A stretch of 64,000 bases of DNA from Thermodesulfobacterium hydrogeniphilum. Lineage in GTDB: Bacteria; Desulfobacterota; Thermodesulfobacteria; Thermodesulfobacteriales; Thermodesulfobacteriaceae. Both the position numbers and the translations under genes were made by a program. The first letter of the stretch is position 1, and each line of letters starts with the position of its first letter. Below the pieces are notes generated by a model. It ran no database searches. It was given only the letters and a program-made list of their open reading frames with translations, and was not told the DNA's origin. The stretch covers positions 62,001 through 126,000 of the forward strand of contig NZ_JQKW01000006.1 of the NCBI RefSeq assembly GCF_000746255.1, written 5' to 3'. This document shows positions 18,998 through 36,011 of the stretch, piece by piece.

Positions 18998-19738
18998 ATG
19001 AAAAACAAATTGATAAGCAAAATATTTTATGAGAAGCCGCCTTTGGAAAAGGTTATAGAAGAATTTTTGCCTATAATTAATTATTGGGCTAACAAATATA
19101 GTTATCAGGGACAGCCTGTTATTAATAAAGATGATCTGGTTTCTGCAGGGATAATAGGATTAATAGAAGCTTATAATAGATATGATCCTTCTAAAAGGGT
19201 TAAATTTAGAACTTTTGCAGAAATTCGTATTAAAGGAGCTATGCTTGATGAAATTAGAAAAGTAGATATAATACCAAGAAGTGTAAAAGAAAAAATAAAT
19301 GAATTTGAAGAAATTATAAAAGAGCTGTATAAAAAATTGGGAAGGATGCCTAAGGAAGAAGAAATAGCCCAAGCTATGAATCTTAGTTTAGATGATTATT
19401 ATAAGTTTTTAGAAAGTATAAAAGGTATTAGTTTTATTGATATTCAAAGCTTTAAACAGAGGATTCCAGATTTGGAAGAAGATGATATTTTTGAACTTAT
19501 AGCAGGTGAAACTAAAGAAGATCCTTTTGAAAAGTATGCTTTAAAGGAATTACAGGAAGAATTAGAAGAAGCTTTAAACTATTTAAATGAAAGGGAACGT
19601 TTGGTTTTAGCATTGTATTATTATGAAGGACTTACTATGAAAGAAATTGCTAAGGTTTTAGATTGTACAGAAAGCAGGGTTTCTCAGTTACATAATCAGG
19701 CTATTTTAAAACTAAGAAGTATTCTAAACAAAAAATAA
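18998..19738 (+). CDS. fliA: RNA polymerase sigma factor for flagellar operons, FliA (sigma-28)
   Basis: This 246-residue sigma factor directs late flagellar transcription. Region 2 contains DDLVSAGIIGLIEAYNRYDP and KFRTFAEIRIKGAMLDEIRK; region 3 follows with MPKEEEIAQAM; region 4 ends in LNERERLVLALYYYEGLTMK then VLDCTESRVSQLHNQAI. All are hallmarks of FliA. A matching sigma-28 promoter is present in the window before flaG (393-419), so the regulator and one likely target are both visible. It sits between flhG and cheY in the classical deltaproteobacterial order. Confidence 0.95.
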   Translation: MKNKLISKIFYEKPPLEKVIEEFLPIINYWANKYSYQGQPVINKDDLVSAGIIGLIEAYNRYDPSKRVKFRTFAEIRIKGAMLDEIRKVDIIPRSVKEKINEFEEIIKELYKKLGRMPKEEEIAQAMNLSLDDYYKFLESIKGISFIDIQSFKQRIPDLEEDDIFELIAGETKEDPFEKYALKELQEELEEALNYLNERERLVLALYYYEGLTMKEIAKVLDCTESRVSQLHNQAILKLRSILNKK

Positions 19739-26026: not shown

Positions 26027-27076
26027 TTAAACCTCCTCTGCTATATGGTTTTTAAAAGCCTTTAATAAATTTAGTCCTTTTTCAGCTAAAATTACAGTAA
26101 GACTTCCCATACCACAGGCAGGTGTAAACAGGCTTTTTTTAAGAATTTCTTTTTCAGAAAAATCAATTTTAACAGAAAAGTCTTTTAATTGATTTTTAAA
26201 TTTTTTTAAAACTTCTTCTAACTCTACTTTTTCCAGTTGTTCTTTATCTGTAGGAATTACTCCCCAAGCTATATACTTATTATCTTTTTTTAAAAAGTTT
26301 TTAATATGATTATCATAAATTACAAATTTTTCATAAAAATTAAAGCTATCAAAATTTAATATATCTATTTCTGATTCTAAAACTATATCCCATGAAGTGT
26401 TTGCACATACATGGATTCCTGGGATGATATTATGTTTTTTGAGAAGAGTAGCTATTTCATTAAGCATAGTAATAACATCATTTTTTGAAATAGTTATGAA
26501 AGCAGAAGATCCAAATCCTGCCAGACCAGGTTCATCAAGAAAAATAATTACTTCAGGGGCAAGCTTTTTTAATTTTATTCCTTGAGCTAAAGCCTTTATA
26601 CTAATAAATTTTGTAATAAGATCTCTTAAATCATCTCTGAATATAGGTATTTCTCCTGTTTCTATTTTTAGAGCTGTAGCCAAAGTAAAAGGTCCTGTAA
26701 TTTGACCTTTTACAATAGATGGTTTATATTTTTCTCCAAAACTTAAAAAGGCTTTAAATCCTTTTGCTACTTCTTCAGATAAACCAAAATTTTCTAAAAG
26801 TTCTAAATTATTTTCTTCCACAATTTGTAAATAGTTTTCATAGAATTTAAGCATATCTTCTTCAAATTTAGGGGAGGAAGTATCAATTTTCTCTTTATCC
26901 CAATTGAACCCTGGCAATCCTTCATTGAACTGTAAAAGCATACTTTCCTTTTTTATCTTAGACAGTTGAGGCCAAGCTGGAATATCCAGGTTTTCAAAAA
27001 CTAATTCTACAGATTTTTTAGGATCTTCTAAAGGAAGACTTCCTATATGAGTAGTTTTTAAAGATAAATCTTTCAT
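26027..27076 (-). CDS. Core MetE-type methionine synthase-like protein
   Basis: This 349-residue protein has only the catalytic barrel of cobalamin-independent methionine synthase (UROD/MetE superfamily). It begins with THIGSLP (about 9-15) and contains KGQITGPFTLA, FLDEPGLAGFGSS, and zinc-ligand candidates in HVCANTSWD and TPACGMGSL. Full MetE is about 750 residues; short core enzymes accept methyl groups from a corrinoid protein or another donor. The donor here is unknown. It heads a minus-strand operon with an AsnC-type domain and an HNH protein. AGGAGG precedes the ATG. Confidence 0.75.
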   Translation of the reverse strand: MKDLSLKTTHIGSLPLEDPKKSVELVFENLDIPAWPQLSKIKKESMLLQFNEGLPGFNWDKEKIDTSSPKFEEDMLKFYENYLQIVEENNLELLENFGLSEEVAKGFKAFLSFGEKYKPSIVKGQITGPFTLATALKIETGEIPIFRDDLRDLITKFISIKALAQGIKLKKLAPEVIIFLDEPGLAGFGSSAFITISKNDVITMLNEIATLLKKHNIIPGIHVCANTSWDIVLESEIDILNFDSFNFYEKFVIYDNHIKNFLKKDNKYIAWGVIPTDKEQLEKVELEEVLKKFKNQLKDFSVKIDFSEKEILKKSLFTPACGMGSLTVILAEKGLNLLKAFKNHIAEEV

Positions 27077-27236: not shown

Positions 27237-28919
27237 TTGTTAATAGAATGGAATGAACAATTAGTTACAGGTATAAAAGAAGTAGATACTCAACATCAAA
27301 AATTAATAAGTCTGATTAATGAACTGTATGAGGCTTTAATTCAAAAAAAAGAAAAGGAAGTTTTAGATAGAATTTTAAGAGAACTGGTTGATTATACCAA
27401 TTATCATTTTAAAACTGAAGAACGATTAATGGATGAGAATAAGTGTCCAGAAAAGGAGGTTCATAAAAAAGCTCACGAGTTTTTCAAGAGCAAAATAAAA
27501 GAGCTAATAAGAAAAAAAGAAGAAGATTATGCAAGCTTTGAATTGTTTAAATTTTTAAAAAATTGGTTAATAACTCACATTTTAGTTATGGATAAAAAAT
27601 TAGGATGTTTTTTAAAATATGGTCAAGAAAAATGTAAAGACGTATATAAAGATTCTTTAACTGATATTTTAACTAAAAATGCCTTTTTATCCCTTTTAGA
27701 TCAATATATTTTTAAAGCTCAGGAAGAAGATAAGGAATTAGCTTTAATTTTATTAGATATAGATGATTATTTTTTTATTAACACAAAATATGGTCCTGAA
27801 ATTGCTGATCTTTTATTAAATGATTTTGCTAAATATTTAAAGAGGCAGATAGAAAAAGATAATGTGTTTTTAGGAAAATATGAGGGAGATCAGTTTATTA
27901 TAGCTGTTTATGATATTACTTTTTTAGAGCTTTTAGATTTTATAGAAAATTTGATTAAAAAGGTCAGAAATTATAGATTTAATTTGGGGAGAATAGATAT
28001 ACAAATAACTGCCTCCTTAGGAGTGGCTTTTTATCCTTCTGATGGAAAGAATTCTTCTGAGCTTTTAAGAGCTGTTTTTATAGCCTTGAAAGCTGCTAAA
28101 AAAGCAGGGAAAAATACTTGGAAATTTTTTGAATCTAAGTTTGAAGAATATATTCAGAAATTTACACAAATTAAAGAACTTATAGAGTATGCTATTAAAG
28201 AAAGAAAAATAGTTCCTTATATACAACCCATTTTTGATGCTGAAAAGTTGACGATTATAGGAGGGGAGATACTTTTAAGAATTTTAGATAATAAAGGAAA
28301 TTTAATACCAGCAGGACATTTTATAGAAATTGCTCATGAAATAGGATATATAGATGAACTTGAAGATGCTTTAATTGAAAAAATTTTATCTTCAAAGTAT
28401 TTAGAGCTGTATAAAAATAAATATATTTTTATAAATAAAACTATCAAATCCATAGAAAAAGCGATTTACTTATCTTCAGAAATTGAAATTCTTAATGATT
28501 TGGCCCATAAAAAAGATTTTTATTTTGTAATTGAAATTACAGAAGAATCTTTAGTTCATTTTTCAGAAGGTGTACAACTTATTAATCAAAGTATTAAAAA
28601 ATCAAAAATAAAACTTGCTATAGATGACTTTGGGGCAGGGTATGCTTCTTTTACTTCACTTATTAATATTGATGCTGAGTTTTTAAAGATTGATGGATCA
28701 ATTGTAAAAAGAGTTTTAGATTCAAAAAAGCATGTAAGTATATTAAAAGGAATAATTTATTTAGCAAAAGAACTTGGTCTTAAAACCATAGCAGAATTTG
28801 TTGAAACAAAAGAAATAGTAGATTTACTTTATGTTTTAGGAATTGATTATTTGCAGGGATATTATTTAGCCAAACCTATGTCCTTAGAGGAATTTAAGGA
28901 TTTCAAATTAAATAAATAA
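27237..28919 (+). CDS. Hemerythrin-GGDEF-EAL protein (probable c-di-GMP phosphodiesterase)
   Basis: The 560-residue cytoplasmic protein starts at TTG 27237, required because the hemerythrin fold begins at LIEWNEQL. The diiron ligands are complete: His20, His57, Glu61, His76, His80, His114 and Asp119. The GGDEF domain (about 140-300) has YEGDQF (215-220) instead of GGDEF and should not make c-di-GMP. The EAL domain (about 310-560) has EILLRI, Asn in FINKT, EITEESL, IDDFGAGY, FLKIDG, AEFVE and LQGYYLAKP, so phosphodiesterase activity is plausible. An oxygen- or redox-sensing input controlling c-di-GMP breakdown fits a motile anaerobe. tRNA-Arg follows. Confidence 0.9.
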   Translation: MLIEWNEQLVTGIKEVDTQHQKLISLINELYEALIQKKEKEVLDRILRELVDYTNYHFKTEERLMDENKCPEKEVHKKAHEFFKSKIKELIRKKEEDYASFELFKFLKNWLITHILVMDKKLGCFLKYGQEKCKDVYKDSLTDILTKNAFLSLLDQYIFKAQEEDKELALILLDIDDYFFINTKYGPEIADLLLNDFAKYLKRQIEKDNVFLGKYEGDQFIIAVYDITFLELLDFIENLIKKVRNYRFNLGRIDIQITASLGVAFYPSDGKNSSELLRAVFIALKAAKKAGKNTWKFFESKFEEYIQKFTQIKELIEYAIKERKIVPYIQPIFDAEKLTIIGGEILLRILDNKGNLIPAGHFIEIAHEIGYIDELEDALIEKILSSKYLELYKNKYIFINKTIKSIEKAIYLSSEIEILNDLAHKKDFYFVIEITEESLVHFSEGVQLINQSIKKSKIKLAIDDFGAGYASFTSLINIDAEFLKIDGSIVKRVLDSKKHVSILKGIIYLAKELGLKTIAEFVETKEIVDLLYVLGIDYLQGYYLAKPMSLEEFKDFKLNK

Positions 28920-29002
28920 GTTTAAATAAATAAGTTTTTATATTTGAATTGTGGATCTTGAAAAATTGTTTTAAAATATTAAGATAAAAAGGAATTTAAT
29001 AT

Positions 29003-29076
29003 GCCCCCGTAGCTCAGGAGGATAGAGCACGAGATTCCTAATCTCGGTGTCGCAGGTTCGAGTCCTGCCGGGGGCG
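29003..29076 (+). tRNA. tRNA-Arg (anticodon CCU)
   Basis: This is a 74-base class I tRNA. The acceptor stem GCCCCCG pairs with CGGGGGC with discriminator G. The anticodon stem CGAGA/TCTCG encloses TTCCTAA with anticodon CCT, reading AGG. The T-arm has GGTTCGAGTCC. CCA is not encoded in place (GCA follows). It borders a stretch with phage-like regulators, and tRNA-Arg genes are common integration sites, but no duplicated 3' end was found in the window. Confidence 0.96.
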
Positions 29077-29149
29077 CATGAATTCTATGTTTCAGAGGAG
29101 TTTATAGTTCACTAAGCAATTTTAAAAAACGCTAAGGTATTCATTTTTT

Positions 29150-29590
29150 TTATGATTCAAGTTCCTTAACTAAGTCTTGAAGAAATTTTAAAGCTTTTTC
29201 GTTTCCATTCTTAGCTTTTATAAAATTTATAAAAAATGTTAAAAATTCTTCTATTAATGATAGATTAAATATTTTTTCAAAAAGATAATGATAGTCTTCT
29301 AATGTTGAATTTATAAAAAAGAAATTATTTTCTAATAATTTTTGAGATGTTTCAATATGATCTATAAACATATTTCCAATTCCTAAAAGTAACCAATTTA
29401 GATTAACTTTATAATGGAGTGCAATTTTTATAAGCATATCATAACCAGGTTTTATTTTTCCATTTTCATATTTAGAAATCATGGTAAAAGGTATATTTAA
29501 TTGAGCTGCCATTTCTTTTTGAGATAGACCAAGCTTTTTTCTAAGTAATTTTAGTCTCATGCTAAAGTTGTCCTTTCTTTTTTCTGTCAT
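29150..29590 (-). CDS. XRE family phage-repressor-like regulator
   Basis: The protein has an N-terminal XRE helix-turn-helix: MRLKLLRKKLGLSQKEMAAQ continuing through LNIPFTMISKYENGKIKP (about 11-50). Then comes NLNWLLLGIG, typical of prophage repressors and their chromosomal descendants. The rest is helical with no peptidase domain. ATG 29590 (146 residues) is chosen. A TTG at 29602 lies inside the operator palindrome, and ATG 29557 has the best ribosome site but would start at the first HTH helix. It is transcribed away from a Cro-like reading frame (29773-29965), with two dyads between them, the layout of a lysogeny-type switch. No integrase or structural phage gene is present. Confidence 0.8.
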   Translation of the reverse strand: MTEKRKDNFSMRLKLLRKKLGLSQKEMAAQLNIPFTMISKYENGKIKPGYDMLIKIALHYKVNLNWLLLGIGNMFIDHIETSQKLLENNFFFINSTLEDYHYLFEKIFNLSLIEEFLTFFINFIKAKNGNEKALKFLQDLVKELES

Positions 29591-29601
29591 ATATTTAATC
29601 A

Positions 29602-29627
29602 AAATTGGTTAAAAAATTAACCAATTT
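29602..29627. promoter_or_regulatory. Perfect 26-base dyad, probable XRE operator
   Basis: AAATTGGTTAA (29602-29612) and TTAACCAATTT (29617-29627) are perfect 11-base inverted arms around AAAA. It lies 12 bases before the XRE start codon and downstream of a forward promoter on the other strand. Position and symmetry suggest autorepression. Confidence 0.65.
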
Positions 29628-29640
29628 AAGCCATTTTAAC

Positions 29641-29668
29641 TTGACAATTTTCTAAATTGTATTAGTAT
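29641..29668 (+). promoter_or_regulatory. Forward promoter with embedded dyad in the XRE/Cro-like gap
   Basis: TTGACA (29641-29646) and TAGTAT (29663-29668) are spaced by 16 bases. Overlapping the -35 and spacer is ACAATTT-TCT-AAATTGT (29644-29660), a perfect seven-base inverted repeat sharing the AAATTG half-site with the dyad at 29602-29627. A repressor bound here would block transcription toward the Cro-like frame and the chemoreceptor. Confidence 0.55.
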
Positions 29669-29772
29669 TTTATAAAAATATTAAACAAAAAAAATCTTTA
29701 ATATTATATATTAATTTTAAATTATAACCCCCATAAAAGCAATTCTATTTCAGATTATAATTTTTTTAAAAA
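29669..29772. other. A/T-rich leader between the forward promoter and the Cro-like frame
   Basis: No ORF or clear structure is visible. Runs of A and T dominate. It would be the 5' leader of a transcript from the promoter at 29641-29668. Confidence 0.4.
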
Positions 29773-29965
29773 ATGATAAAAATAAAAACTAAAGAAAGAA
29801 CGATAAAAATAAAAACAGCTTTATTATTAAAAGGGTTAAAACAAAAGGACATTGCTCGAGATTTAGATATTAGTTCAGCAGCTGTAAGTATGTTTATAAA
29901 TGGGGAAACGTAGTTCAAAACGATTTGAAAAATGGGTAAAAGAAAATTTAGGGATAGAGTTGTAA
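29773..29965 (+). pseudogene. Small Cro-like HTH protein, frameshifted
   Basis: ATG 29773 opens a 46-codon frame with a helix-turn-helix (ALLLKGLKQKDIARDLDISS then AAVSMFINGE) that stops at TAG 29911. One base later in phase, a second frame continues KRSSKRFEKWVKENLGIEL to TAA at 29963. Removing one G from the GGGG run at 29902-29905 fuses them into a 63-residue HTH protein of a recognisable small-regulator type. The break is therefore a single-base insertion or a sequencing error in a homopolymer. It is divergent from the XRE repressor, as a Cro-like partner would be. A degenerate copy of its 3' end occurs at 31660-31730. Confidence 0.7.
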
Positions 29966-29970
29966 AGAAG
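29896..29970 (+). repeat. Copy A of a direct repeat flanking the chemoreceptor gene
   Basis: This covers the 3' end of the frameshifted Cro-like gene, from ATAAATGG to GTAAAGAAG. It matches copy B (31660-31730) over its whole length with a few substitutions and four single-base gaps. Homology ends sharply after GTAAAGAAG in both copies. Confidence 0.75.
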
Positions 29971-30022
29971 TATCAGATAATTATAAAAATTGTTAGATTA
30001 TACAGAGAATCAGGAGGATTAT

Positions 30023-31645
30023 ATGTTTAAAAATTTAAGTATTGCTAAAAAAATAGGTTTAGGATTTGGGATATTGATTTTTTTGATAATTTTGCTTTCT
30101 TTTTATATGTTTTTAAATCTTTCAAAAATAGAAAAACATATGAGAAAATTATACAATAATTTTTATAAATTAGAGGCAGTGCAAAATATAAGAACTTTAG
30201 TTTCGGATGTTACAGTAAGAGAGCTTTTAATGATGCTTCGTGTAGAAGATTTGCAAAAGAGGAAAGAGCTTTATAAAAAAATTCAAGGAGTTGAGGATAT
30301 TTATAAAAAAAATCTTGAGTTTTTGAAAAAGGCTACGGTATCTAAAGAAGAAGCTAAAAAATTAAATGAATTTATTGATGCTATATTAAATTTAAAAGAA
30401 AAAAATAATAAAGTTATTGAACTTGCTTTAAAAGGAAAAACTTCTGAAGCGAATTTGATTTACGATAAAGAAGTTCTTCCAAAAATAAATACAATTGATA
30501 AAAAAGTTAGTGAATTGTTAAATTATCATCGAAAAGAATTAAAGGATGAAATAGGTGATGTAAAAGAATCTGTACGTTCAAGTGTTATTGTGCTTTTATT
30601 GTTAGGTATTATTTCTGTAATTATATCATTTTTTGTATGTATTAATGTAATAAATGGAATAAAAACACCTGTTAGAAAAATAAGTGAAAATCTCAAGAAG
30701 GTAAAAGGGGGAGACTTTACTATAAAGTTTGATGTAGCACGTAAAGATGAAATGGGAATAATAGCTCAGAGTATTAGAGATACAATAGAAAATGTAAAAG
30801 GGCTTTTGAGAGAAATAAAAGAAGTATCCATAGCTCTTGCAAGTTCAGCAGAGGAAATGAATACTATAAGTAAAGAATTTAGTGTTAATATAGATACGAC
30901 TACAGAAAAAACTACCCAAATAGCAAGTGCAGCTGAAGAAATGAGTGTAACTGTTGTTGATATTGCTAAGAATACTCAAAATATACTCAATTCAAGTGTA
31001 GAGACAGCTAAGGTTGCAAGAGAAGGAGAAAAATTAACTCTTAAAACAGCTCAAGAGGTTAAAGTGATAGAAGAAGCTGGTAAAAAATTGCAAGATATAA
31101 TGCTCAGGTTAGTAGAAGAGACAGAAAAAATACAAGAAGTAGTAACATTTATTAAAGATGTAGCGGAACAAACTAATCTTTTAGCTTTAAATGCAACTAT
31201 TGAAGCGGCAAGGGCAGGGGAACATGGTAAAAGTTTTGCTGTAGTTGCAGGAGAGATTAGAAAGCTTGCTGAAAGAACAAATAAATCAACAGAAGAAGTA
31301 GATCAGATGATTAAGGAAATTCAAAATGTTGTAGAGGAAGTTAAAAATGCAGTAAAAGATATAAATGAAAAGGTTAATTTAGGAGTTAAATTATCAGAAG
31401 AAGCATCTAATATCCTTAATACTATTGCAGAAAAAGCTGATAAATTACAAGAAATGATTCAAACTATAGCGAGTGCAACAGAAGAAATGAGTGTTACTGC
31501 AGACTCTGTTGCAAAGGATGTAGGGAGTATTGCAGAAGGTACAAAAGATATAAAAGTAGGAATAGAACAGTTAGTTGAAACTTCAAAAGAAGTAGCCAAA
31601 CTTGGAAATGACCTTAAAAATGCTATAGAAAAGTTTAAAGTTTAA
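30023..31645 (+). CDS. Methyl-accepting chemotaxis protein
   Basis: This 540-residue chemoreceptor starts at ATG 30023 behind AGGAGG; an upstream in-frame TTG at 29990 is rejected. Transmembrane helices lie at about 14-32 and 187-210 and bracket a periplasmic four-helix-bundle ligand domain (about 33-186). A HAMP domain follows (about 211-265), then the long cytoplasmic coiled coil. Its tip contains [20 protein letters not shown] and [26 protein letters not shown] and EEMSVTAD repeats mark candidate methylation helices. There is no C-terminal CheR-docking pentapeptide. It is likely methylated by the CheR and CheB of this window. Copies A and B of a repeat flank it. Confidence 0.93.
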
Positions 31646-31659
31646 AACAAAAGTCATTA

Positions 31660-31730
31660 ATAAATGGAAAATATAGCTCAAAAAGATTGAAAATAGGTAA
31701 AAGAAAATTGGGAATAGATTTGTAAAGAAG
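31660..31730 (+). repeat. Copy B of the direct repeat: relic of a Cro-like gene tail
   Basis: These 71 bases align with 29896-29970. Reading in frame they give INGKYSSKR then LGIDL and a TAA stop, against INGKRSSKR and LGIEL in copy A. The HTH half is missing. It is therefore a decayed remnant of the same gene family, placed between the chemoreceptor and the STAS gene. A duplication or recombination event that inserted or copied the chemoreceptor segment would explain it. Confidence 0.7.
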
Positions 31731-31744
31731 AGGGGAAAGAGAAA

Positions 31745-32101
31745 ATGAATAAGAATGATATGAATAATCTAATTTTACAGGAAGAAGATTTTAGTGTAAA
31801 CGTTTCTATTACGGAGAAAGAAAATGAACTTATAATTACTGGACATGTTATTACTATAAGTGATTATTGGCTTATTAAAGAGGTAGTTACTAATTTGGTT
31901 GAGAAAGGATATAGAGAAATAATATTAACCTTTAATGATGCAGAGATATTAAATTCTTCTATTATAGGATTTCTTTTGAAATTAGTTTTAAAAGAAAATA
32001 TAAAGGTTAAGATAAAAATTAAAAATCCAGATCTTTATAAATTTTTAAAGATTTTAGGCGTTATAGATGTATTTGAGATAGAGAAAGTAAACCTTACATA
32101 G
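31745..32101 (+). CDS. STAS domain protein (anti-sigma factor antagonist-like)
   Basis: The 118-residue protein is a single STAS domain. A beta strand (ELIITGHVI), a helix and strand (REIILTFNDA) lead to LNSSIIGFLLKL at 70-81, with Ser71/Ser72 at the position phosphorylated in SpoIIAA/RsbV proteins, then LYKFLKILGVIDVFEI as the final helix. The canonical SSG is altered to SSII. A GGGGAAAGAG ribosome site precedes the ATG. The convergent gene at 32173-33876 encodes a PP2C phosphatase and HATPase kinase, which would be the natural partners to dephosphorylate and phosphorylate it. Confidence 0.85.
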   Translation: MNKNDMNNLILQEEDFSVNVSITEKENELIITGHVITISDYWLIKEVVTNLVEKGYREIILTFNDAEILNSSIIGFLLKLVLKENIKVKIKIKNPDLYKFLKILGVIDVFEIEKVNLT

Positions 32102-32102
32102 G

Positions 32103-32222
32103 GATTTAAAACTTTTAGAGAACAGGATAAAAGAAAAGGAGAAGGAAGAAAAAAGAAAAATAATGGATGATGTTACAATTTTTTTGGAAAACAGTTTTTT
32201 AAATCAAAAATTACTACTATAG
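32103..32222 (+). pseudogene. Possible 3' remnant of a second PP2C phosphatase gene
   Basis: A 39-codon open stretch follows the STAS stop in the same direction. It reads DLKLLENRIKEKEKEEKRK, then IMDDVTIFLEN. PP2C/SpoIIE domains typically end with a charged helix and DDVTL(L/V)V. The internal ATG at 32163 is not followed by a known domain. It may be a relic of an RsbU-like gene once cotranscribed with the STAS gene, or chance. Its 3' part overlaps the convergent gene. Confidence 0.3.
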
Positions 32223-33876
32223 TATTACCACTTAAATTAAAGAAAAAATCTTTAGCTAATTGATTTATTATTTTAAATCCATAACCACTAAACAATCTTT
32301 TATAACCATTTTCAAGAATATCTTTTTTATTAAATCCACTTCCTTCATCTTTTATAATTATATACAATTCCTTTTTAGAAATAGACAAAACAAATTTTAT
32401 TTTAATTTTTTTAGTAATAGCGTTAGCTACAAAATTGGAATAATTTCCATTTATTATAAATTTTTCTTTTTGTTGAGGACTTAACTTTAAAGAACCATGT
32501 TCATGAGCATTTAATAATAGTTCATTCATAATAGTAAGAAATTTATTAGCACAAGAATTAAAATATTTGGTTTTTTGTAATCTTTTGTAGATTAAAGTTA
32601 AAAATTTATTAATCTCAATTAAATTAGAATTTATTTCAAATTCCGATTTAAAAAAACCTTTTATTTCACAAGAATTTATATATATTGCTGTAAGATCATC
32701 ATCAAACTTTTTGATTTTTTCATAAAAAATACATAACCAATCTTTAAAGGTGTTTGAGTACAAAAAATCGTTATCTAAAAGTTTAAAATAAAATTTGTAA
32801 TCTGAAGCCTGTGCAGTTAAAATGCCATCTGAAAGTATTAACATTTTTGTTATATTAGCCAAATCAATTTTTACCTTTTTAAAATTATGGGTATATTTGG
32901 AAATAGGTAATTGCTCAGAATATATTTTTTTTAACTTGGAATTTTCAATAATATATAAAGGTGGCATACCAAAATTAGATACCAAAATTTCATTTTTTGA
33001 TACATCCATTAGTAAAAATAATGCACATAATACTTCATTTTCCAAAAGAATGGAATTAATGAAATATATAAATTCTTTAACCAAAAAATCAAATATTTTT
33101 TCATTATTATTTAAATTTTCTTTTATACGTAATCTTGGTAATATATTTATCAGATAGTTTATAAAAGCTGTAGCTGTAACAGCAGTAATAGAACCAGGAA
33201 TACTTTTTCCCATTACATCAAAAATAAAGAAAAAAATTTTTCCCTTTTCTAAAATTCTTATAGAATATGTATCTCCACTAAGAATTTCTATAGGTTTATA
33301 AAATGTTTTAAAATAAAAAATTTTTTTACCTAATGGAATGTCTTCCCAATATGTAGAAGAGATCAACTCGTTGTTAATTATCTCTTTTTGTTTTTTAAAG
33401 GCTTCTTTTTGTTGATATTGTAGATATTTGTTAATTAATTTTGAACTTTCCAATTTTATTTCTGGTTTTTCCAATGTAAAATTTTTACAAATTTTATTTT
33501 GGATTAAATTTTCAATGACTTTTATCAAATTATTAATAGTTTTAGAATAAACATCTTTTAAGATATACTTGTCTATTGCGACATTTAATGTTTTTAAATA
33601 AGAAATATCTCTTTTTGTAGTAAGCAAAATAGTTTCCAAATCAGGATTAAACTGCTTAGCAACATTTGCTAATTCTAATCCATTAATATATGGTAATCGG
33701 TAATTTACAATTAAAATATTAAACTGTTCGTTTTTAAGAGTTTTTAAAGCTTCTTTAGGATTACTACAAGCTTTAACATTAGGGCATATCTTTTTAAGAT
33801 TATATTTTAAAATATCTAAATAAAACTTATCATCATCTACAATCAAAATTTTTAAAGTATTAATTAGGTTTTTCAT
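32173..33876 (-). CDS. Receiver-PP2C phosphatase-HATPase kinase fusion (partner-switching regulator)
   Basis: This 567-residue protein joins three modules. An N-terminal receiver (about 8-125) keeps the acidic pocket VDDD but has Asn58 (LIVNYRLP) where the phosphoacceptor Asp should be. A SpoIIE/RsbU PP2C phosphatase domain follows (about 190-400), with LSGDTY, FDVMGKSIPGSI and LILSDG. An RsbW-type HATPase domain ends the chain (about 430-560) with N-box MNELLLNAHEHG, DEGSGF and YGFKII. It thus carries opposing phosphatase and kinase activities. The convergent STAS gene (31745-32101) is its obvious substrate. The lost Asp suggests phosphorylation-independent input. Confidence 0.88.
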   Translation of the reverse strand: MKNLINTLKILIVDDDKFYLDILKYNLKKICPNVKACSNPKEALKTLKNEQFNILIVNYRLPYINGLELANVAKQFNPDLETILLTTKRDISYLKTLNVAIDKYILKDVYSKTINNLIKVIENLIQNKICKNFTLEKPEIKLESSKLINKYLQYQQKEAFKKQKEIINNELISSTYWEDIPLGKKIFYFKTFYKPIEILSGDTYSIRILEKGKIFFFIFDVMGKSIPGSITAVTATAFINYLINILPRLRIKENLNNNEKIFDFLVKEFIYFINSILLENEVLCALFLLMDVSKNEILVSNFGMPPLYIIENSKLKKIYSEQLPISKYTHNFKKVKIDLANITKMLILSDGILTAQASDYKFYFKLLDNDFLYSNTFKDWLCIFYEKIKKFDDDLTAIYINSCEIKGFFKSEFEINSNLIEINKFLTLIYKRLQKTKYFNSCANKFLTIMNELLLNAHEHGSLKLSPQQKEKFIINGNYSNFVANAITKKIKIKFVLSISKKELYIIIKDEGSGFNKKDILENGYKRLFSGYGFKIINQLAKDFFFNLSGNTIVVIFDLKNCFPKKL

Positions 33877-33904
33877 TTTTCATAATCGTTGTTCTTTTTA
33901 ATTT

Positions 33905-35509
33905 TTATTTTTTTTGATATTTTTCATAGTTTAATATAAAATCTTCTATAGAAACCGGTTTGCTGAAATAAAATCCTTGTAAATAATTACAATTTAAACT
34001 TTGGAGAATTTTTAATTGTTTTTCGTTTTCTACCCCTTCTGCTAAAGTTTTAATTCCTAATTTTTTAGAAAGATCTATAATAACTTGAACTATAGCCATG
34101 ACTTTTGGTTCATTTATCATCCTTTTAATGAAGTTCATGTCTATCTTTACTATATCAACAGGAAAGTCTATTAAATATCCTAAGGAAGAATATCCAGTAC
34201 CAAAATCATCTATAGCAATTAGAATATCTAATTTTTTAATTTCTTTAAGAATAGAAAAGACATTGGGTTCTATAAATAATCTTTCTGTAAGTTCAATTAT
34301 AAACGGTGATTTTAAGATTTCCCTTAAATTCTTCAATTTATCAATTAAAGATGGAGTAAAGAAACTTTTAGCTGATAAATTGATAGATGGAATAGCTTTA
34401 ATATTATTAATTTTAGAAGCAAGTAGTTTTATTTTTTCAAAAATCCAATTTTCAACTTTCGTAATAAGCCCGGAATTTTCTAATATTTCAATAAAATGTT
34501 TAGGAAGTATAATTTCTTCATTATGTTTTAATCTAAGCAAAATTTCAAAACTTTCAATTTCAAAGGTCTTGCTTGAATAAATGGGTTGTACATAAAGTAA
34601 AAATTTTTCATATTTTAATGCCCTTAATATTTCATTTCTCTTTTCTATTTCTTTTTTAATTAAAATATCTATATCTTTACTATAAGAAAAATGTATATTT
34701 TCTCCCTTGTTTTTAGCTAAATCTAAAGCTAAAAGAGCTTTTTCATAGAGATCTTCTGCATTATCTGCATCTTCTGGATATGTAGAAATACCCAAATTAA
34801 AACTTATAGGGATTTCTTCACCATTTATATTTATGGGAGAAAGTAATTTATCAAATATTGAACTTATAATACCAGGTAAATAATGTTTATTTTGATTAAA
34901 AATGACAATTAGAACTTGATCTAATCTTATGTTTGAAATGTAGGCTTCAGGGAAAAGTTTTTTTAATTGATTATTTAAAATTTTAGTGATTTTATAAGCT
35001 ACATTTAGACCAAAACTTGAAGATATAGTAAAAAAGTTTCTAATTTCTAATACAATAAACAAAATTGGATTATTTCTAAATTCAGTAATATAAATTTCAA
35101 CGTGTTTTAAGGTTTCTTTTAAATTTATAAATTCTTTGTTATGAGATATAATAGATTTTAATTCTTTTCCAAAAAACACAAAAGCTTCCAAAGAATCTTT
35201 ATTTTTAAGAAGTAGTATGGTAAGTTCTACTGTGGTATATATACCATCTTTTTTTTTCAATTTTGCTATAAATGAGTAATTTTTTCTTAAAATAGATAAG
35301 TTTTTTAACTTAGACGATTCAATAAATAAATCTAATTTCTGCCCAATAATTTCTTCTTTTAAATAGTTAGAGATCTTATAAAAAGCTTCATTGGCAAATA
35401 AGATTGTTCTTTGTGTATCTGTTATAATAATGATTTTATTTATTTCTAAAGCTAATTTATAGATTAAATTACATATTTCTTCTTTAGAGATGTTTCCACT
35501 TGATTGCAT
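33905..35509 (-). CDS. PAS-GGDEF-EAL protein (probable c-di-GMP phosphodiesterase)
   Basis: The 534-residue cytoplasmic protein has a PAS domain (about 20-115; IIIITDTQRTILFANEAFYK, then EEIIGQKLDLF). A degenerate GGDEF domain follows (about 130-270) in which the active site reads RLDQV. The EAL domain (about 280-530) keeps EILLRL, ELTERLF, IDDFGTGYSSLGYL, VKIDM, LAEGVEN and LQGFYFSKP. Phosphodiesterase activity is plausible and cyclase activity is not. It lies 28 bases upstream of the receiver-PP2C-HATPase gene on the same strand and is probably cotranscribed with it. Confidence 0.9.
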   Translation of the reverse strand: MQSSGNISKEEICNLIYKLALEINKIIIITDTQRTILFANEAFYKISNYLKEEIIGQKLDLFIESSKLKNLSILRKNYSFIAKLKKKDGIYTTVELTILLLKNKDSLEAFVFFGKELKSIISHNKEFINLKETLKHVEIYITEFRNNPILFIVLEIRNFFTISSSFGLNVAYKITKILNNQLKKLFPEAYISNIRLDQVLIVIFNQNKHYLPGIISSIFDKLLSPININGEEIPISFNLGISTYPEDADNAEDLYEKALLALDLAKNKGENIHFSYSKDIDILIKKEIEKRNEILRALKYEKFLLYVQPIYSSKTFEIESFEILLRLKHNEEIILPKHFIEILENSGLITKVENWIFEKIKLLASKINNIKAIPSINLSAKSFFTPSLIDKLKNLREILKSPFIIELTERLFIEPNVFSILKEIKKLDILIAIDDFGTGYSSLGYLIDFPVDIVKIDMNFIKRMINEPKVMAIVQVIIDLSKKLGIKTLAEGVENEKQLKILQSLNCNYLQGFYFSKPVSIEDFILNYEKYQKK

Positions 35510-35639: not shown

Positions 35640-36011
35640 ATGGCAGAAAAAAAATATGGTGAAATTGCTATAGAAGAAGCTCAGCTTGAAGCATGGGACA
35701 ATCCCTATCCTGATAGAAATTATCTGATTGAAATCACTTTTCCAGAGTTTACTTGTCTTTGTCCTCGTTCAGGATATCCAGATTTTGCTGTAATTAAAAT
35801 CTCCTATATTCCTAAGGATAAAATTGTAGAATTAAAGTCTTTGAAACTCTGGCTTAATAAATTTAGAAGCCGTTATATTTCTCATGAGGCTGCTACTAAT
35901 GAAATATTTGATGCCCTCTGGAATTTACTTCAGCCCAAAAAACTTAAAGTAATAGCTGATTTTCATCCCAGAGGGAATGTTCATACTGTTATTACTGTGG
36001 AAAAGCCTTAA
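35640..36011 (+). CDS. queF: NADPH-dependent 7-cyano-7-deazaguanine reductase QueF
   Basis: QueF reduces preQ0 to preQ1 in queuosine biosynthesis. The 123-residue chain is the short (type I, YkvM-like) form. The thioimide-forming Cys41 lies in [13 protein letters not shown], with Asp48 nearby, and the NADPH-binding ELKSLKLW motif follows. C-terminal FHPRGN is also conserved. The ATG has no Shine-Dalgarno; TATAAA at 35621-35626 suggests a very short leader. No preQ1 riboswitch is visible upstream. Its end overlaps the convergent neighbour by 4 bases. Confidence 0.94.

Follow-up and report, generated by a model that had tools for sequence, protein, structure and literature searches.

Single-chain partner switches, in which a receiver, a phosphatase and a kinase are parts of one protein, have been shown experimentally for HsbR of Pseudomonas and CrsR of Shewanella (PMC6482189). 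In HsbR, the unphosphorylated receiver goes along with kinase activity and the phosphorylated receiver with phosphatase activity (PMC6482189, PMC5085249). Receivers lacking the phosphoacceptor aspartate are also known, with Asn accounting for 16% of such substitutions (PMC4395418), and it is an open question how such pseudo-receivers control their outputs (PMC12632262). The single-chain switch and the Asn pseudo-receiver have each been described already (PMC6482189, PMC3610818, PMC4395418), and a claim that the fusion discussed below is a new architecture is ruled out by the literature, since HsbR, CrsR, SypE and Rv1364c all join kinase and phosphatase in a single protein. The combination of a single-chain switch with an Asn pseudo-receiver, and with homologues that carry the Asp, is apparently undescribed in the open literature searched, the coverage of which was incomplete; regarding a module made of MCP, fusion and STAS genes, nothing direct was found in the same literature.

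The window referred to in this work is a stretch of 64,000 nucleotides from Thermodesulfobacterium hydrogeniphilum (contig NZ_JQKW01000006.1, positions 62,001 to 126,000), for which an earlier note, made from the sequence alone, had described a partner-switching locus. The features at the center of the analysis are the following:

32173..33876, minus strand: receiver-PP2C-HATPase fusion, 567 aa (ORF, Pfam, predicted structure, homologues)
33703..33705, minus strand: Asn58 codon (AAT), where the receiver would have its phosphoacceptor (read directly from the sequence; alignment)
31745..32101, plus strand: STAS-domain anti-sigma-factor-antagonist-like protein, 118 aa, with a predicted phosphorylation site at Ser71 (ORF, Pfam, model)

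The fusion consists of a receiver (residues ~8-120), a helical linker (~121-185), a SpoIIE/RsbU-type phosphatase (~186-402) and an RsbW-type kinase (~403-556). Its Pfam matches are Response_reg at 10-118 (1.5e-15), SpoIIE at 211-398 (1.2e-11) and HATPase_c_2 at 439-556 (5e-4, under the curated cut-off), the last of which is matched by 28 of 30 homologues of the fusion. An AlphaFold2 model built from a 30-sequence input (mean pLDDT 88.7) displays receiver, long helical linker, PP2C-like and HATPase-like regions, and the closest solved folds are RssB, for receiver and PP2C, and Rv1364c (PDB 3ke6), in its RsbU-RsbW part. The GHKL-type boxes N, G1 and G2 are intact (E452/N456/H460-G461, D510-x-G-x-G514 and G531-x-G533), as are the PP2C metal ligands, which the alignment places at D202, D220, D350 and D393/D394; both sets are retained in nearly all homologues as well. 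The HATPase identity of the C-terminus is assigned because of the homologue Pfam matches, the intact motifs and the predicted structure taken together. Pfam, motifs, model and homologues thus bear out the single chain of receiver, SpoIIE/RsbU-type PP2C and RsbW-type HATPase proposed in the earlier note, and this order is the one that characterizes switches of the HsbR/CrsR type. The domain order and the intact catalytic residues also support the further proposal that opposing activities on the STAS protein are tied together, from which we infer that the fusion would act both as kinase and as phosphatase. An artefact of two merged genes is ruled out, as about 29 homologous loci have the same fusion. 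Plasmid relatives gave partial matches only, to the receiver and the phosphatase.

The STAS gene and the fusion gene converge tail to tail, as had been described, with 71 bp between them, and are not an operon here. The STAS protein has a weak Pfam match (E = 0.01, below the cut-off), and its model (pLDDT 88.4) adopts the fold of the SpoIIAA/RsbV antagonists, with RsbV and SpoIIAA as best PDB matches (E about 1e-4, TM 0.57-0.63) and a resemblance to RsbV taken from its complex with RsbW. Ser71 is invariant in 26 of 26 STAS relatives, and the next residue varies among S, T and A; therefore Ser71 is the predicted phosphorylation site, and of the two residues put forward earlier, Ser71 and Ser72, the former is kept and the latter dropped. 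Compared with the motif D-S-(S/T)-G-L-G, the window protein reads N-S-S-I-I-G, in which the Ser and the final Gly are kept; most relatives have T or P where the motif has its Asp. An adjacent gene for a putative dedicated STAS partner with a conserved Ser is a second trait of HsbR/CrsR-type switches, and it suggests that the two proteins are paired and that Ser71 is phosphorylated. The genome of the window yielded no further protein that is convincingly STAS or RsbW-like; the other STAS-like matches turned out to be ABC transporters and two proteins that resemble FliG and KdsA.

The wider family was explored with a profile of the phosphatase-kinase half, searched against 277 genomes of another class of the same phylum; it matched in 27 of them, with long matches in 26. 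At the homologous loci, about 29 in number, a STAS gene is adjacent in 25 and an MCP gene in 19, counts that are minima, since contig ends or the limits of the extracted flank truncate several loci. MCP, receiver-PP2C-HATPase fusion and STAS form a recurrent three-gene module. As to whether the domain order and the Asn58 are found elsewhere, a question raised in the earlier note, the order recurs at these loci and the Asn is found only in the window and in one congener, G008; every readable receiver among the loci of the other class has Asp at the phosphoacceptor. A more distant homologue, from Pseudocolwellia, lies in the order CheB / MCP-like / STAS / fusion / receiver-GGDEF, reminiscent of crsRA inside the Shewanella Che1 locus (PMC9855816). 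In the tree, computed from homologues other than HsbR and CrsR themselves, this protein, set among che genes, belongs to a distinct clade with 100/100 support. Two further observations concern individual loci. In several operons of the other class, downstream of the fusion, an extra receiver-HATPase protein of ~300 aa, without a phosphatase, is encoded at L070:600-1511, L071:284-1180, L076:3053-3949, L081:530-1501 and L084:2933-3835. A few fusions (L076:988-2760, with Ala at the E452 position, L089:1042-2886 and L084:955-2640) have apparently lost kinase-box residues, and appear to be degenerate kinases, frameshifts or assembly errors.

The receiver of the window fusion (PF00072, Response_reg, 1.5e-15) carries Asn58 and belongs with the aspartate-less receivers. 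Its codon was read directly as AAT, and the other pocket residues (D14, D15, T86 and K107) are all in place, in agreement with the earlier description of an Asn at the phosphoacceptor with the acidic pocket kept. The position is Asp in 34 of 36 aligned homologues, the exceptions being the Asn of congener G008 and one locus with an unreadable N-terminus. The Asn is therefore limited to the window fusion and its G008 orthologue, which are 53% identical and both use AAT, and a sequencing error or a local mutation is ruled out by this shared codon. In a tree computed without the receiver the two Asn proteins pair at 98/99, so that one Asp-to-Asn change suffices. The earlier note had held that Asp at position 58 in homologues would make the Asn a local mutation, and this applies in part: all readable homologues outside the Asn pair have Asp, yet the Asn is common to both orthologues. 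It had also proposed a phosphorylation-independent or protein-protein input. The atypical receiver agrees with this, but because all readable homologues beyond the pair have Asp, such an input would be a derived, lineage-specific trait and not a property of the system. Phosphorylation of the receiver has presumably been lost in the lineage of the window.

Among 60 related genomes, that of the window included, only G008 has an orthologue of the fusion. In G008 the STAS and fusion genes are 3 bp apart in the same direction, beside MCP-like, CheA, CheY and CheR genes. The genome of the window has the G008-type CheA (94% identical) and MCP-like gene (60%) ~60 kb from the module, with no module at that site; as the module sits at different places in the two genomes, it was moved or acquired separately. 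It has also diverged far more (53% for the fusion) than core genes, such as QueF at 93% identity. G008 has two STAS paralogues, the second of which (L042:9351-9755, ~59% identical to that of the window) lies without a fusion near an HDOD-GGDEF-like protein, and one kinase/phosphatase may serve two antagonists there. The G008 fusion itself (L009:1468-3177) has a Gln run within its HATPase part, and in the phosphatase it carries the motif DVKEKG vs DVMGKS, so that D-x-x-G reads D-V-K-E.

The two Asn fusions are least alike in the receiver, at 43% identity, and the other two domains are 54% and 61% identical. When the identity of the phosphatase-kinase half is subtracted from that of the receiver, the Asn pair gives -0.12, vs a mean of +0.035 (sd 0.079) for 74 Asp pairs of similar divergence, none of which is as low; these pairs share branches and are not independent, and with two Asn orthologues in the data (n = 2) the comparison is suggestive and not a formal test. 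Such faster divergence is as predicted if the constraint of phosphotransfer was lost. Some of the change may be drift, because the fusion gene is so AT-rich: its GC content is 21%, and no more than 0.2% of tiles of this size in the window are as low. The fast-evolving receiver and its outlying identity difference, the additional loss, in G008, of the conserved Pro after the acceptor, and a module that differs in site between the genomes and lies here ~60 kb from the CheA genes could also mean that the receiver is vestigial, its input lost on the move to a new genomic site; the receiver would then serve folding or dimerization, and an unregulated kinase/phosphatase would follow ATP/ADP and STAS abundance. 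We judge this unlikely, since the five-strand fold is well predicted in the fusion model and both orthologues retain T86, K107 and the acidic pair, which is more than an idle domain would be expected to keep. The same intact residues could instead serve a receiver that is still phosphorylated, either at an alternative acceptor or after deamidation of Asn58 to Asp at the high growth temperature. Against this stand the Asn maintained in both orthologues, a constraint on the receiver looser than in the Asp homologues, and the context of the residue, Asn-Tyr being a slow deamidation site. There is a reported case of a receiver in which Asn reverted to Asp (PMC4395418), and the scenario is still very improbable.

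The surroundings of the module in the window include the following genes:

29990..31645, plus strand: 4HB-HAMP-MCP chemoreceptor, 99 bp upstream of the STAS gene on the same strand (Pfam)
33905..35509, minus strand: PAS-GGDEF(degenerate)-EAL protein, 28 bp upstream of the fusion on the same strand (Pfam)
29150..29602, minus strand: Xre/HTH_3 regulator (Pfam), adjoining the module here and, as a 53% identical gene, in G008
27237..28919, plus strand: hemerythrin-GGDEF-EAL protein of the same accessory block (Pfam)
18998..19738, plus strand: FliA/WhiG-type sigma-28 factor of the flagellar/chemotaxis cluster, candidate final target via FlgM

The block from 27.2 to 35.5 kb, with the hemerythrin-GGDEF-EAL, HTH, MCP, STAS, fusion and PAS-GGDEF-EAL genes, is a low-GC accessory island (27237-35509) between MetE-like (26027-27076) and QueF (35640-36011) genes, beside the flagellar/chemotaxis cluster, FliA included, which spans about 9.9 to 24.3 kb. 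In congener G004 (L120) these flanking genes enclose ferritin-like and transporter-like genes in place of the island. The PAS-GGDEF-EAL gene and the fusion gene probably share one transcript, and the PAS-GGDEF-EAL protein is probably a c-di-GMP phosphodiesterase, because its EAL half looks intact and its GGDEF signature is degenerate. The signature of the hemerythrin-GGDEF-EAL protein reads EGDQF, for which reason this protein is perhaps an oxygen- or redox-sensing phosphodiesterase. The neighborhood supports the link to chemoreceptor and c-di-GMP genes that had been suggested, and adds motility genes to it. The accompanying remark that no sigma factor is adjacent is literally true, but the FliA-type gene lies in the same window.

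This gene, the FlgM gene elsewhere in the genome, the flagellar/chemotaxis cluster adjoining the island and the precedents of HsbA-FlgM and CrsR-RpoS (PMC6482189, PMC5085249) raise the possibility of a sigma-28 output, in which the STAS protein binds FlgM, or the HATPase binds a sigma factor directly, to gate flagellar genes. Such an output is compatible with the preferred reading given below; we hold it as tentative and on the unlikely side, since FliA and the flagellar genes flank the same site in a congener without the module, and sigma-28 promoter-like sites before the MCP or STAS gene are not above chance. A general promoter/terminator scan likewise gave no excess over shuffles.

The reading that we prefer, with a probability of about two in three, is that of an HsbR/CrsR-like partner switch that is phosphorylation-independent at its receiver in this lineage. 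The C-terminal HATPase would phosphorylate Ser71 of the neighboring STAS protein with ATP, the PP2C domain would take the phosphate off, and the phosphorylation state would set which partner the STAS protein binds. In relatives, a histidine kinase, plausibly the CheA of an associated chemosensory cluster, would phosphorylate the receiver Asp and so tip the balance. In the Thermodesulfobacterium lineage the single change from Asp to Asn would have made the domain a pseudo-receiver, and contact with a protein or ligand, the dimer state via the helical linker, or simply nucleotide and protein levels would have to set the balance of kinase and phosphatase. The default state is probably kinase-biased, by analogy with HsbR, which is in its kinase state when the receiver carries no phosphate; some other contact would then have to release the phosphatase. 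The convergent orientation of the STAS and fusion genes in the window and the altered D-x-x-G motif of the G008 phosphatase count against this reading. As output, the chemosensory array, the c-di-GMP enzymes and FlgM/sigma-28 are candidates, none of which is favored by the data. A more specific version, in which direct contact or a bound ligand, for example the MCP/chemosensory array or c-di-GMP, reads out the pseudo-receiver and the STAS state links chemosensing or c-di-GMP to motility without phosphotransfer, is rather improbable as it stands; c-di-GMP binding has been reported for the ShkA pseudo-receiver (PMC7010744).

For the partner switch with a phosphorylation-independent receiver, the wider interest is twofold. 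The acceptor was lost a single time, in a receiver whose ancestry is known, both catalytic activities that it should control look intact in the chain, and the Asp homologues share gene neighbors; these three features make a clean natural pair for asking what a receiver does without phosphorylation. In addition, partner switching linked to chemoreceptors, which has been studied in Shewanella so far, may reach another phylum, as the recurrent module of MCP, fusion and STAS suggests.

Among the known systems, HsbR-HsbA of P. aeruginosa (PMC6482189, PMC5085249) shares with the window the receiver-PP2C-kinase/anti-sigma order in one chain, a dedicated STAS partner with one phosphorylated Ser (predicted here), a flagellar/chemotaxis neighborhood and a c-di-GMP enzyme partner, HsbD, counted as shared in view of the c-di-GMP enzyme neighbors. 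It differs in that its receiver is phosphorylatable and fed by HptB, whereas the window has Asn58 and no Hpt gene was recognized near the fusion, and in that its partner is a cyclase, whereas the c-di-GMP neighbors in the window look like phosphodiesterases. CrsR-CrsA of Shewanella oneidensis (PMC6482189, PMC9855816) has the same domain order and a STAS partner, and its genes lie in the chemosensory Che1 cluster with MCP genes (PMC9855816), as an MCP gene adjoins the window module; CrsR, which was not itself among the searched sequences, binds RpoS, a type of target not identified for the window fusion. SypE of Vibrio fischeri likewise unites the three domains in a single polypeptide, which acts on one STAS protein, SypA (PMC3610818). 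Its order is different, namely kinase-receiver-phosphatase. Rv1364c of Mycobacterium tuberculosis, unlike the window fusion, has sensor and STAS parts in the same chain and is not known to have a receiver. It shares the tandem phosphatase and kinase with the fusion, and is among its closest solved folds (PDB 3ke6). Pseudo-receivers such as RitR, with Asn53 (PMC4395418, PMC12632262), have the receiver fold and the Asn phosphoacceptor in common with the window, where the domain is coupled to a PP2C-kinase fusion and the remaining pocket is retained. Judged from its sequence, the window switch most likely resembles HsbR and CrsR in its working and departs from them in one feature, the phosphorylatable Asp of the receiver, in place of which it has Asn58.
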